A stretch of 64,000 bases of DNA from Rhodocyclaceae bacterium (GTDB taxonomy: Bacteria; Pseudomonadota; Gammaproteobacteria; Burkholderiales; Rhodocyclaceae): NCBI GenBank assembly GCA_028869135.1, contig JAGWTC010000002.1, positions 124,001-188,000 on the forward strand, written 5' to 3'. Positions 24,411 through 34,010 of this stretch are shown one piece after another (positions within the stretch are counted from its first letter, which is position 1; every line of letters starts with the position of its first letter). The position numbers and the translations under genes were made by a program. The notes beneath the pieces were generated by a model, which saw only the letters and a list, made by a program, of their open reading frames with translations, was not told where the DNA came from and searched no databases.

Positions 24411-24420
24411 AAGCAAGGCA

Positions 24421-24541
24421 AGGTCAAACGCAAGCCACCAAGTGACCAAGAACACAAAGTCTCGCCAAGAAGGGCAAAAGCAACCTCATCGTGTAGGGTG
24501 TTCTCGGTGCAAGCTTGGTGTCCTTCGTGGTGAAAGATTTT
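24421..24541. repeat. Inverted-arm repeat, copy A (between rpe and gph)
   Basis: The left arm carries CCACCAAG (24435-24442) followed by further CCAAG/ACAAAG units; the right arm carries the reverse pattern CTTGGTG (24514-24520) and CTTCGTGGTG (24523-24532). The two arms are imperfectly complementary and sit ~50 nt apart. The left arm resembles the reverse complement of the right arm of copy B over about 50 nt. The right end runs into the TTG start of gph. The family recurs at 27418-27525, 28595-29058 and 33959-34010. Confidence 0.65.
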
Positions 24542-27417: not shown

Positions 27418-27525
27418 CTACCAAGACACCAGGAACACCCGGAACCACCAGGAAAGCCGGATACGATTCGGGGGCTTTGCTCTTCTTGGTGCAACCTTGT
27501 GTTCTTGTTGCCTTGGTGGTTCGCA
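27418..27525. repeat. Inverted-arm repeat, copy B (between trpG and trpD)
   Basis: The left arm starts ACCAAGACACCAGGAACAC (27419-27437); the right arm contains CTTCTTGGTG (27482-27491) and CTTGGTGGTT (27512-27521). It fills nearly the whole 147-bp trpG-trpD gap. No T-run follows, so it should not stop transcription. The right flank leads into GAAAGGTTTAA and then the trpD ATG. Confidence 0.65.
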
Positions 27526-27549
27526 ATTGATTTTGCTTGAAAGGTTTAA

Positions 27550-28584
27550 ATGATTACTCCCCAACAAGCGCTGCAACGCGTCATTGAGAGTCGGGAGATC
27601 TTCCACGACGAGATGCTGCACTTGATGCGTCAGATCATGGCCGGCGAAGTTTCGCCCGCCATGGTCGCCGCGATTCTCGCCGGCCTGCGCGTCAAGAAGG
27701 AAACCATAGGCGAGATCGCCGCCGCCGCGACCGTCATGCGCGAGCTGGCGACCAAGGTCGAGATCGCCGACAAGACCGGCTTCGTTGATATCGTCGGCAC
27801 CGGCGGCGACGGCGCGCACACCTTCAATATCTCCACCGCCTCGACCTTCGTGATTGCCGCCGCCGGCGGCAAGGTTGCCAAGCACGGCGGCCGCAGCGTG
27901 TCGTCCAGCTCCGGCAGCGCCGACGCTTTCGAGGCCCTGGGCACCAATATCATGCTCAAGCCCGAACAGGTGGCCGAATGCCTGCAGGCGACCGGTATTG
28001 GCTTCATGTTCGCGCCGAATCACCATAACGCCATGAAGAACGTCGCGCCCATCCGCAAGGAAATGGGTGTGCGCACCATCTTCAATATCCTGGGGCCGCT
28101 GACCAATCCGGCCGGCGCGCCGAATACCCTGATGGGCGTATTCCACCCGGATCTCGTCGGCATCCAGGTGCGCGTCATGCAGCGCCTCGGCGCTGAGCAC
28201 GTGCTGATCGTGCACGGCAAGGACGGCATGGACGAGATTTCGCTGGGCGCATCGACGATGGTCGGCGAACTCAAGAACGGCGAAGTCAGCGAATACGAAA
28301 TCCATCCGGAGGACCTGGGTTTCGCCATGTCCTCCAGTCGCAATCTGCGTGTCGCCAACCCGGCTGAGTCCAAGGCCATGCTGCTGGCCGCAATCGACGG
28401 CGGCGCGCCCTGCATTCAGGCTGCGCGCGACATCGTCACCCTGAATGCCGGCGCCGCCCTGTACACCGCCGGCCGCGCGGACTCCATAGCCGAGGGCGTC
28501 AAACAGGCCCGCGAAGCCATCACCAGCGGCGCAGCCCGCGCCAAGGTCGATGAATTTGTCCAATACACCCGGAAGTACAACTAA
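27550..28584 (+). CDS. trpD: Anthranilate phosphoribosyltransferase
   Basis: 344-residue enzyme that transfers phosphoribose from PRPP to anthranilate. It shows the glycine-rich PRPP loop [17 protein letters not shown], the [15 protein letters not shown] stretch, and [18 protein letters not shown] with the anthranilate-contact region. The AAAGG box before ATG 27550 lies just outside repeat copy B. Third structural gene of the trp cluster. Confidence 0.96.
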
Positions 28585-28594
28585 AGATCAAAAA

Positions 28595-29058
28595 CATTTC
28601 ACCACGAAGGGCACAAAGGACACGAAGAAATGCCGTTAGACAAAGATGCCCGAGCCGAGGAGCTTGCTGCGGCAGTCGTCGATGCGGCGATTAAAGTGCA
28701 CAAAGCGCTTGGCCCTGGTTTGCTGGAGTCTGTGTATGAAGCGTGCCTGGCGCATGAGTTGGGTTTGCGTGGAATACCCGTCAAACGACAGTTGGTGTTG
28801 CCCGTGACTTACGAGGGAATGACCCTGGAAACAGGGCTGCGCATCGATATGCTGGCAGGCGATTGTGTGATCGTCGAATTGAAGTCCGTGGATACTCTGT
28901 TACCTGTGCATCAGTCACAGCTTATTACCTACCTGAAACTGTCGGGCCTTAACTTGGGGCTGCTGATTAACTTCAACGTTCGCATGTTGCGTGATGGGCT
29001 GAAGCGAATTGTCTTGTAGGGTTCTCTTCGTGTCCTTTGTGTTCTTCGTGGTGAAAAG
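28595..29058 (+). mobile_element. Repeat-bounded element carrying a GxxExxY gene (copy C) inside the trp operon
   Basis: The left arm 28597-28629 and the reverse complement of the right arm 29026-29056 share TTTCACCACGAAG, then two differing bases, then CACAAAGGACACGAAGA, about 30 nt with two mismatches. Between them lies only the GxxExxY reading frame, whose ATG abuts the left arm. The arms are of the same family as copies A, B and D, which lack the gene. No transposase and no clear target-site duplication were found. Calling it mobile is inference from terminal repeats plus insertion between trpD and trpC. Confidence 0.5.
28630..29019 (+). CDS. GxxExxY family protein
   Basis: 129 residues with the name-giving motif at 30-36 (GLLESVY in GPGLLESVYEACLAHEL). 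The body resembles a small PD-(D/E)XK nuclease core: Asp73 in RIDMLAGD, then Glu84 and Lys86 in VELKSVD, and a Q-containing helix HQSQLITYLKLSGL. The family function is unknown, and members often occur in several copies per genome. No normal ribosome-binding site is present apart from the purine-rich GAAGAA at the end of the left repeat arm. It splits trpD from trpC without an obvious terminator. Confidence 0.85.
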   Translation: MPLDKDARAEELAAAVVDAAIKVHKALGPGLLESVYEACLAHELGLRGIPVKRQLVLPVTYEGMTLETGLRIDMLAGDCVIVELKSVDTLLPVHQSQLITYLKLSGLNLGLLINFNVRMLRDGLKRIVL

Positions 29059-29075
29059 ATTTAAGGTTTAAAACT

Positions 29076-29864
29076 ATGTCCGACATACTCGACAAGATCA
29101 TCGCCACCAAGCGTGAAGAGGTTCTCGCCGCCCGTGACGCCAGGCCTTTGACGGCGGTGCGTGCCGAGGCCGAGGCGCAGGTTGCTGCTCGCGACTTCGT
29201 TGGCGCCATTCGCAGCAAGATTGCCGCGGGCCGGCCCGCCGTCATCGCTGAAATCAAGAAGGCTAGCCCGTCCAAGGGCGTGTTGCGCGAAGACTTTCGC
29301 CCCGCCGAGATAGCGGCTGACTATGCCGCCAACGGCGCCGCCTGCCTGTCGGTGCTGACGGACAAACAGTATTTCCAGGGGGCCCCCGAATATCTGCAGG
29401 CCGCGCGCGCCGCCTGCCAACTGCCGGTGTTGCGCAAGGACTTCATGATCGACCCCTATCAGGTCTATGAGGCCCGCGCCATGGGCGCCGACGCCATTCT
29501 GCTGATCGTCGCGGCTTTGCCACTGTCGGCCATGCAGGACATGGAGAAAATTGCCCACGCGCTGGGCATGGCGGTGCTGGTCGAGTGCCATGATGCCGAT
29601 GAGCTGGAGCTTGCATTGCAGCTCAAAACCCCGCTTCTAGGTATCAATAATCGCAATTTGCGCACTTTCGAAGTAAGTCTGAGCACCACCTTGGACCAGT
29701 TGGCAAGGATTCCGGCCGATCGCACGGTGGTGACCGAATCCGGCATTTTGGGGCCGGCGGATGTGGCAAAAATGCAAGCCCATCAGGTGCATGCCTTCCT
29801 GGTTGGCGAGGCTTTTATGCGCGCACCCAGTCCCGGCGCGGAGCTTGCCCGACTGTTCGCCTGA
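29076..29864 (+). CDS. trpC: Indole-3-glycerol-phosphate synthase
   Basis: 262-residue single-domain TIM barrel that closes the pyrrole ring of indole glycerol phosphate. Family marks are [69 protein letters not shown] and [14 protein letters not shown]. It is not fused to TrpF, which together with trpBA must be elsewhere. The start codon lies 18 nt beyond the right arm of repeat copy C, behind AAGG. Confidence 0.96.
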
Positions 29865-33842: not shown

Positions 33843-33918
33843 CCCTGAGCTTGTCGAAGAGCCGAAGCCGGGCGCGAAGAAACGCGTCCCGCTATCTCCA
33901 CCCTTCGACAAGCTCGGG
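33843..33918. repeat. GAGCTTGTCGAAG-type inverted repeat
   Basis: CTGAGCTTGTCGAAG (33845-33859) and its near complement CCTTCGACAAGCTCGG (33901-33916) face each other around ~40 nt. It lies in the 469-bp gap between rhlE and the lipoprotein gene, which shows no convincing gene. From memory, similar intergenic palindromes occur in many proteobacterial genomes. Confidence 0.5.
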
Positions 33919-33958
33919 GTTCAGCCCTAACAGGGTTGGGGCCCCAAGCCCGGAAAGG

Positions 33959-34010
33959 CAAGATCAAAAGCGGGCCACCAAGTGAGCAAGAACCCCAAGT
34001 CAGACAAAGG
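33959..34010. repeat. Single arm of the trp-operon repeat family (copy D)
   Basis: AAGATCAAAAGCGGGCCACC followed by AAGTGAGCAAGAACCCCAAG closely resembles the left arm of copy A at 24421-24465. No matching opposite arm was found nearby, so this is a solo or decayed copy. Confidence 0.5.

Follow-up and report, generated by a model that had tools for sequence, protein, structure and literature searches.

We propose that the small predicted nuclease encoded by GxxExxY genes recognises the inverted arms flanking its own gene and causes new copies of them to arise elsewhere in intergenic DNA, in the manner of RAYTs and REPINs and with an unrelated enzyme. We give this reading a probability of roughly 60%. 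Enzymes known to spread their own repeats belong, so far, mainly to an unrelated family. The argument starts from one gene in the trp operon of a Rhodocyclaceae bacterium, within a 64-kb stretch of DNA that is called the window here.

The gene, its arms and its protein

The features of the window that matter are these.

28630..29019, plus strand: GxxExxY gene, 129 aa; TIGR04256 / PF13366 (PDDEXK_3); predicted PD-(D/E)XK nuclease
28591..28628, plus strand: left arm, AAAACATTTCACCA, then 9-nt units running into the gene: CACGAAGGG, CACAAAGGA, CACGAAGAA
29025..29062, minus strand: right arm, an inverted copy with 34/38 matches to the left arm
24428..24541, no strand: gene-less decayed inward arm pair in the rpe–gph gap, without counterpart in the congener G001 (L089)
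~27420..27531, no strand: gene-less decayed inward arm pair in the trpG–trpD gap, without counterpart in the congener G002 (L024)
33955..34001, plus strand: solo arm-like stretch, 85% identical to 24415–24461 (the rpe–gph copy)
27550..28584, plus strand: trpD, the upstream neighbour, with its stop 6 nt upstream of the left arm
29076..29864, plus strand: trpC, the downstream neighbour, whose start lies 13 nt after the right arm

How closely do the arms agree? They match at 30 of 32 positions in a 32-nt core, which gives the two mismatches reported in a first-pass annotation of this DNA, and at 34 of 38 over their full length. That annotation also described the GxxExxY reading frame as the sole gene between trpD and trpC, which it is, and placed its ATG against the left arm; the ATG (28630) lies one base after the arm end. 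The purine-rich stretches AAAGGA and GAAGAA upstream of the ATG do fall inside the left arm and are a candidate ribosome-binding sequence. Related gene-less copies in two other gaps (rpe–gph and trpG–trpD) and the solo arm at 33955–34001 were likewise recovered. A 22-nt arm core pattern, allowing three mismatches or fewer, has three matches in the window versus a mean of 0 in 100 shuffles; the third (24514–24535, minus strand) is one arm of the decayed rpe–gph pair. Across the whole genome there is a single GxxExxY match and, outside the window cluster, one more arm (C16:210592) with a decayed inverted partner. A looser arm pattern gave matches in this genome no more numerous than those of its reversed-pattern control. 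Arm copies in this genome cluster around the GxxExxY gene. Adjoining the solo arm, at 33902–33960, is a stretch with CCTTCGACAAGCTCGGG, which we take to resemble a repeat common in environmental bacterial genomes.

What kind of protein lies between the arms? It scores 145.2 bits against the TIGR04256 profile (cut-off 35) and 139.7 bits against PF13366 (cut-off 22), and a protein search returned at least 7998 scored relatives. The G-x-x-E-x-x-Y motif is present: across 79 sequences G30 and E33 are invariant and Y36 nearly so, and a candidate catalytic set (E33, D73, E83-x-K85 and Q97) is invariant across the same number. An AlphaFold2 model of the 129-residue protein has a pLDDT of 94.7. The closest folds by Foldseek are SSO0001 and the lambda-type exonucleases (best E-value 0.0095), and the model has the core fold and the D and E/D-x-K active site by which the PD-(D/E)XK superfamily is recognised. 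By sequence, no relative of solved structure appeared at E-values up to 1; a Pfam scan at E 0.001 returned no transposase domain, only PF13366. The confident model and the invariant catalytic residues back the nuclease-like fold, previously put forward from knowledge of the family, and on the strength of that model we predict with confidence a minimal lambda-exonuclease/Cas4-like PD-(D/E)XK nuclease.

Arms at GxxExxY genes in many phyla and in the trp operon

Do similar arms accompany GxxExxY genes elsewhere? Loci were drawn from 101 relatives (20 genomes with a match, 18 over the cut-off), and further loci from a genome collection spanning Chloroflexi, Planctomycetota, Acidobacteria, Verrucomicrobia, Armatimonadetes, Bacteroidota, Desulfobacterales and others. 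In a blind test, the left flank of each locus was aligned to the reverse complement of the right flank, with 50 shuffles per locus; trpC, trpD, trpG and trpE genes lacking a GxxExxY neighbour served as controls. The resulting count of 45 loci excludes duplicates (L003, L004, L035, L036 and L039), loci whose flank ends at a contig edge (L014, L041 and L060) and two that gave no tblastn match (L027 and L028); L040 was kept though nearly identical to L013.

With gene edges included, inverted arms were found at the gene borders of 39–42 of the 45 GxxExxY loci, depending on threshold, versus 2–11 of 225 controls. At the middle threshold the figures are 41/45 and 4/225; arms are far commoner at these genes than at control genes, contrary to one of the two outcomes by which the first-pass annotation would have been refuted. 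The first form of the test gave 36/45 versus 3/190, and another version 41/45 versus 5/225. In three of the four failures of the 41/45 version (L012, L050 and L054) arms are visible on reading; the fourth, L032, has a left arm and a right flank that ends at a contig edge. At L023 the gene and its left arm are 159 nt apart; this locus failed the 39–42/45 version and passed the 36/45 version.

In most arms a unit of 8, 9 or 10 nt, reading CRCnnAG or CRCnnAT, occurs two to four times in a row; examples are CACnnAGnn and its variants, and CACGAAGGA. Arms of other appearance occur at L045, L057 and L058. The arms of genome G008 have, outside and before CACC, an A-run, about four bases and a T-run, a layout less clear in G022 and G057. 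At L013 (G008) and L274 (Gemmatirosa) the gene lies between two complete gene-less pairs, instead of two single arms.

Eight further loci, from six named plasmid records and two viral contigs, include five with clear arms: Gemmatirosa, Bacteroides, Bernardetia and both viral contigs. One arm is readable at the Sphingomonas locus (score 11.5 versus 10.5 for shuffles), and the arm scores of the Treponema and Prevotella loci were not above shuffles. For L272, L273 and L274 the ends of the gene were placed by hand, without annotation. In L273 (viral contig IMGVR_UViG_3300012344_000020) the GxxExxY match lies between arms with a 10-nt AAATGAATCG-like unit, which suggests that arm sequence may diverge widely. 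The searches behind these loci, which reach closer relatives only, gave six matches among 72,556 plasmid records and two among viral contigs; the same kind of search over 50,697 phage records found nothing, and carriage by phages was rejected on that basis. The annotation of the large algal virus Chrysochromulina parva virus CpV-BQ1 (PMC12085832) includes a GxxExxY gene, by which the family reaches viruses of eukaryotes. We conclude that the unit of gene plus inverted arms occurs across many phyla.

Where do these units reside? The trp operon holds the gene in 15 of the 18 relatives with a GxxExxY match over the cut-off: 11 lie between trpD and trpC, or adjoin one of these genes at a contig edge, and four lie between trpE and trpG or after trpE. 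The operon is a strong home for GxxExxY, with two gaps in use and more than one gene lineage. Gaps between trpD and trpC that hold the gene measure 466–676 nt (nine relatives), whereas 52 of the 67 measured gaps lacking it are 60 nt or shorter and the other 15 span 64–4358 nt; the empty sites anticipated in relatives do exist. In G012 a 127-nt trpD–trpC gap contains a gene-less pair. The first-pass annotation had named a gene conserved at this position in relatives devoid of arms as an outcome that would count against it. The gene recurs there, and its arms are present. An apparent absence of arms at the trp loci of G014, G051 and G087 was rejected, as arms of 8-nt period overlap the gene edges (by test in G051 and G087, by reading in G014).

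In the trp loci, and likewise in five annotated plasmid loci, the gene points the same way as its neighbours. A scan of 28500–29120 found no promoter-like site, and expression would come by read-through from the host operon. Might the arms themselves be regulatory, acting as mRNA folds, terminators or attenuators that set the expression of an operon-lodged nuclease, their dispersal being incidental? The likely ribosome-binding sequence within the left arm would suit such a role, as would the co-directional layout and the length of the inverted repeats, which have A and T runs on their outer sides. On the other hand, the only terminator-like site in the scan is inside the gene (28742–28756) and none is at the arms; nor was a promoter found there. 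No Rfam match covers the arms (six sub-threshold matches fall elsewhere). Gene-less pairs are, moreover, many, intergenic and different between species. We regard a regulatory role of this kind as improbable.

The history of the trp copies bears on another alternative. A single origin of all trp-linked genes was rejected (AU p = 1e-4; trpD–trpC subset p = 9e-4). This test leaves out database hits of unspecified place; when they were counted as 'not trp' p was 9e-9, a count that is unfair because at least one of them, P0024, is the protein of the trp locus L056. The trees were built without Rhodocyc52 (L060) and G056, and the trp-linked genes show clustering on the protein tree, with seven changes versus 14 in shuffles. 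The congeners G000 and G002 share the right arm and flank at the trpD–trpC site; over the available stretches their TrpD proteins are 90% and their TrpG proteins 100% identical, and their GxxExxY proteins 55%. The two GxxExxY genes as sisters were not rejected (AU p = 0.07–0.09). The divergence could mean that the gene changes fast while staying in place, or that it was replaced between its arms.

Could the gene be a homing-type selfish element, whose nuclease cuts gene-less arm sites so that repair copies the gene in, different lineages coming to share the trp site? The G000/G002 pair, with a common right arm and flank beside closely similar TrpD and TrpG and such different GxxExxY proteins, speaks for homing, and the scatter of trp-linked genes over more than one clade agrees with it. 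The sister relationship that was not rejected and the clustering on the tree argue the other way, in that the pattern may be largely vertical with fast change. Homing alone also leaves the arrival of gene-less pairs at new sites unexplained. We consider it improbable.

Other operons may be occupied as well. In L276, a Sphingomonas parapaucimobilis plasmid, fabD and fabG of the fab cluster enclose the GxxExxY gene, at which one arm can be read; this is apparently another insertion into a biosynthetic operon. The reading frame downstream of the gene in L050 starts, as we take it, like the leuB product, and this copy may sit in a leucine operon.

Gene-less pairs and the link between arm and protein

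How are arms arranged away from the gene? We searched genomes with a general pattern of three 9-nt units, which overlooks arms of 8- and 10-nt period; its reversed form, the control, matched 0–8 times per genome. Counts in gene-bearing genomes reach maxima of 48 in Anaerolineaceae, 52 in Chloroflexi, 35 in Planctomycetota and 30 in Acidobacteria. Among the 16 gene-bearing genomes of other phyla, three have no pattern match and several only 1–8. Where neighbouring arms lie 25–300 nt apart, 75 of 76 pairs in eight genomes point inward, 43–166 nt start to start. These eight include G098, which has no gene match and several of whose GC-rich singletons were left out, and G022, counted only among the matches listed; overlapping matches of one arm were merged. 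The count was made without G004, G006, G012, G053, G056, G082 and G083, and outside it G012 has one same-direction pair (1650011/1650037). An open frame spans four of 36 gene-less pairs, compared with 82% of random intervals.

The loops of gene-less copies differ in length and sequence. Three elements of G022 (L228, L233 and L235) have arms and loop in common and unrelated flanks, as do some elements of G008. The loose threshold of this comparison also let through eight flank pairs from each of G008 and G022, and only loop pairs with a large margin were used. Since arms and loop are common where flanks are unrelated, the copied unit is arm–loop–arm.

Do such pairs come and go between related genomes? 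G022 has a sister species in its genus, G117 (100% complete, on a single contig), in which no GxxExxY match was found. Along a 14-kb syntenic stretch G117 lacks all three of the G022 elements. Its DNA matches to that stretch number eight, and the seven listed are syntenic flanks, none an arm; the same query has 71 matches in G118 and 93 in G022 itself. Sampling 800 kb of G117 gave 0 arms versus 12 expected at the density of G022, which fits absence. G118 has two adjoining gene matches and, at syntenic sites, elements in common with G022. A 400-kb sample of G118 nevertheless held no arms while two syntenic G118 loci hold six, so that either the sample is uninformative or arms are sparse in G118. 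The GxxExxY gene seems damaged in both G022 and G118 (partial or split profile match), with arms present. No target-site duplication is visible at the three G022/G117 empty sites, where flanks are just ~76–86% identical. In the window's own genus, too, G002 is without the trpG–trpD pair and G001 without the rpe–gph pair. The mobility of gene-less pairs, at first only surmised, is backed by the empty syntenic sites and by the elements with common loops in unrelated flanks.

Does arm number follow the gene? The median number of arm matches per genome, the arms of the gene itself included, is 5 in the 20 genomes with a gene match versus 1 in the 81 without (p = 5e-5); six or more matches occur in 10/20 versus 6/81. 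There are exceptions both ways. G014, G020 and G087 have a gene over the cut-off and no match to the 9-nt pattern. G004, G033, G053, G074, G081 and G098 have 11–63 arm-pattern matches and no gene match. Some of the matches in G033 look like coding repeats; G098 is 100% complete, and its arms form mostly inward pairs. Such arm-rich genomes may have lost the gene or may owe their arms to another mobiliser.

Does arm type follow the protein? Among loci passing the arm test (38 of 42; L025, with a shifted reading frame, was excluded), arm similarity correlates with protein identity (rho = 0.46, reached by 0 of 5000 shuffles); an earlier run on 39 loci gave rho = 0.44 (p = 2e-4). Proteins at least 60% identical in different genomes (44 pairs) have a mean arm similarity of 0.62, and those less than 45% identical (252 pairs) 0.35. 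Paralogue pairs within one genome (n = 8) average 0.33. G034 illustrates this, with one gene between CACCAAG arms as in G002 and another between arms starting ACCGCYTT as in G012; in G082 the arms of paralogues are of the CGCAAAG and CACGGAG types. Arm type tracks protein type, not host genome. Linked descent would give the same correlation, which therefore shows gene and arms to be one heritable unit and stops short of proving binding.

The mean Hamming distance of dispersed arms is 1.8 to the arms of the resident gene and 5.1 to those of other genomes (permutation p = 2e-4). This test covers 17 arms; 9 of 26 gene sides have no three-unit arm, and G012 was not included. The own genome was nearest or tied for only 11 of the 17 arms, and in a cruder profile test covering genomes other than G012 and G082 it came first at 7 of 24 sides.

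These results must be weighed against the possibility that some other enzyme, or recombination in the host, spreads the arms as a mobile repeat and that the GxxExxY gene is a passenger in one loop. Arms occur where no gene match does (G098, G053, G004 and others), any contact between protein and arm is something we infer, and no target-site duplication was seen at the three sites with flanks ~76–86% identical. A passenger would, however, carry the arms of its host genome; yet paralogues within a genome differ in their arms, while similar proteins elsewhere have matching ones. It would not be expected to be packaged between arms at 39–42 of 45 loci, nor arm number to track gene presence, as syntenic elements also do within one genus. 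We judge a passenger gene unlikely.

We return, then, to a nuclease that spreads its own repeats. The protein would bind the iterated 8–10-nt units, perhaps as a single-strand hairpin or a cruciform, and would cut at or beside the arms. Host repair or replication might then copy the loop, with or without the gene. Against this reading we count the arm-rich genomes lacking the gene, the gene-bearing genomes with few or no pattern matches, the empty G118 sample, the seemingly damaged genes of G022 and G118, the target-site duplication that was not seen, the best Foldseek E-value of 0.0095 and the mixed result of the own-genome arm test; PD-(D/E)XK nucleases are, besides, not known to transpose DNA by themselves. 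The earlier suggestion of a minimal mobile unit with MITE-like derivatives is supported by packaging across phyla, by dispersed gene-less pairs and by empty sites. A wider view, to which we give about even odds, is that GxxExxY proteins are the founders of a second, independent REPIN economy. In it a lambda-exonuclease-like nuclease of ~130 residues, with no transposase, would both maintain and disperse its own hairpins of iterated repeats, which co-evolve with it, in many phyla, and would survive as a single gene or a few copies within biosynthetic operons, trp among them.

Meaning and comparison with known systems

A literature search, with most subscription journals outside it, found no description of GxxExxY genes with cognate repeats and none of a PD-(D/E)XK repeat-spreading system; six common arm strings turned up only in an unrelated context. 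The passages of publications that name GxxExxY give no function and are not about repeats. The family now gains a concrete, testable candidate substrate in the inverted arms that frame its gene. If our reading is true, short repeats in bacteria have a second way of populating intergenic DNA, one that does not depend on HUH transposases, and the dispersed CRCnnAG-type hairpins seen in genomes of Betaproteobacteria, Chloroflexi, Planctomycetota and Acidobacteria would be explained. The system is also a clean one in which to ask how a bare nuclease copies DNA.

Insertion sequences with MITE derivatives have terminal inverted repeats and short gene-less derivatives, and in both respects the GxxExxY units are like them. 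They differ in having no transposase domain, no target-site duplication that could be seen, and loops that vary in length and sequence. Cas4 and the lambda exonucleases are like the GxxExxY protein in predicted fold and in the residues E, D, ExK and QxxxY, a motif set which we take to be of Cas4/lambda-exonuclease type. Cas4 has a four-cysteine iron–sulphur cluster. The GxxExxY protein of the window, in contrast, is only 129 aa long and has two cysteines, so that there is no four-cysteine iron–sulphur site, and no CRISPR neighbours lie between trpD and trpC.

TIRtrons are RAYT-like (TIRYT) genes between long inverted repeats, with dispersed TIR families (PMC3733652). The likeness is of a gene between long inverted repeats that can also occur dispersed; the difference is that the protein there is a tyrosine transposase, whereas only PF13366 matches here.

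The closest parallel in layout is with REP-associated tyrosine transposases and REP doublets, as outlined in passages of Nunvar et al. 2010 (PMC2817692) and Bertels and Rainey 2011 (PMC3116915). In both systems the gene lies between two inverted repeats (here at 39–42 of 45 loci versus 2–11 of 225 controls), protein and cognate repeat co-vary (rho = 0.46 over 38 loci), and repeat number tracks the gene (p = 5e-5, with exceptions both ways). Gene-less inverted doublets populate intergenic DNA in both; here 75 of 76 are inward and an open frame spans 4 of 36. In either system copies may lie clustered around the gene. A gene that varies more than its neighbours at a fixed site, seen here in one congener pair, has its counterpart in the fast change at a fixed site that a passage of PMC2817692 reports for RAYTs. 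Three differences stand beside these likenesses. The RAYT enzyme is an HUH/Y1 transposase, with an HUH motif and a catalytic tyrosine, whereas a PD-(D/E)XK nuclease is predicted here, with invariant residues of that kind, and no Y1 domain was matched. REPs are short GTAG-tagged palindromes, whereas the arms are arrays of 8–10-nt direct-repeat units with no GTAG head and do not form single palindromes. The GxxExxY gene, finally, lies inside operons, in these relatives mostly trp. Because no Y1 domain was matched and the repeats are not of the REP kind, we do not class the system as RAYT, though we hold that it probably works like one.
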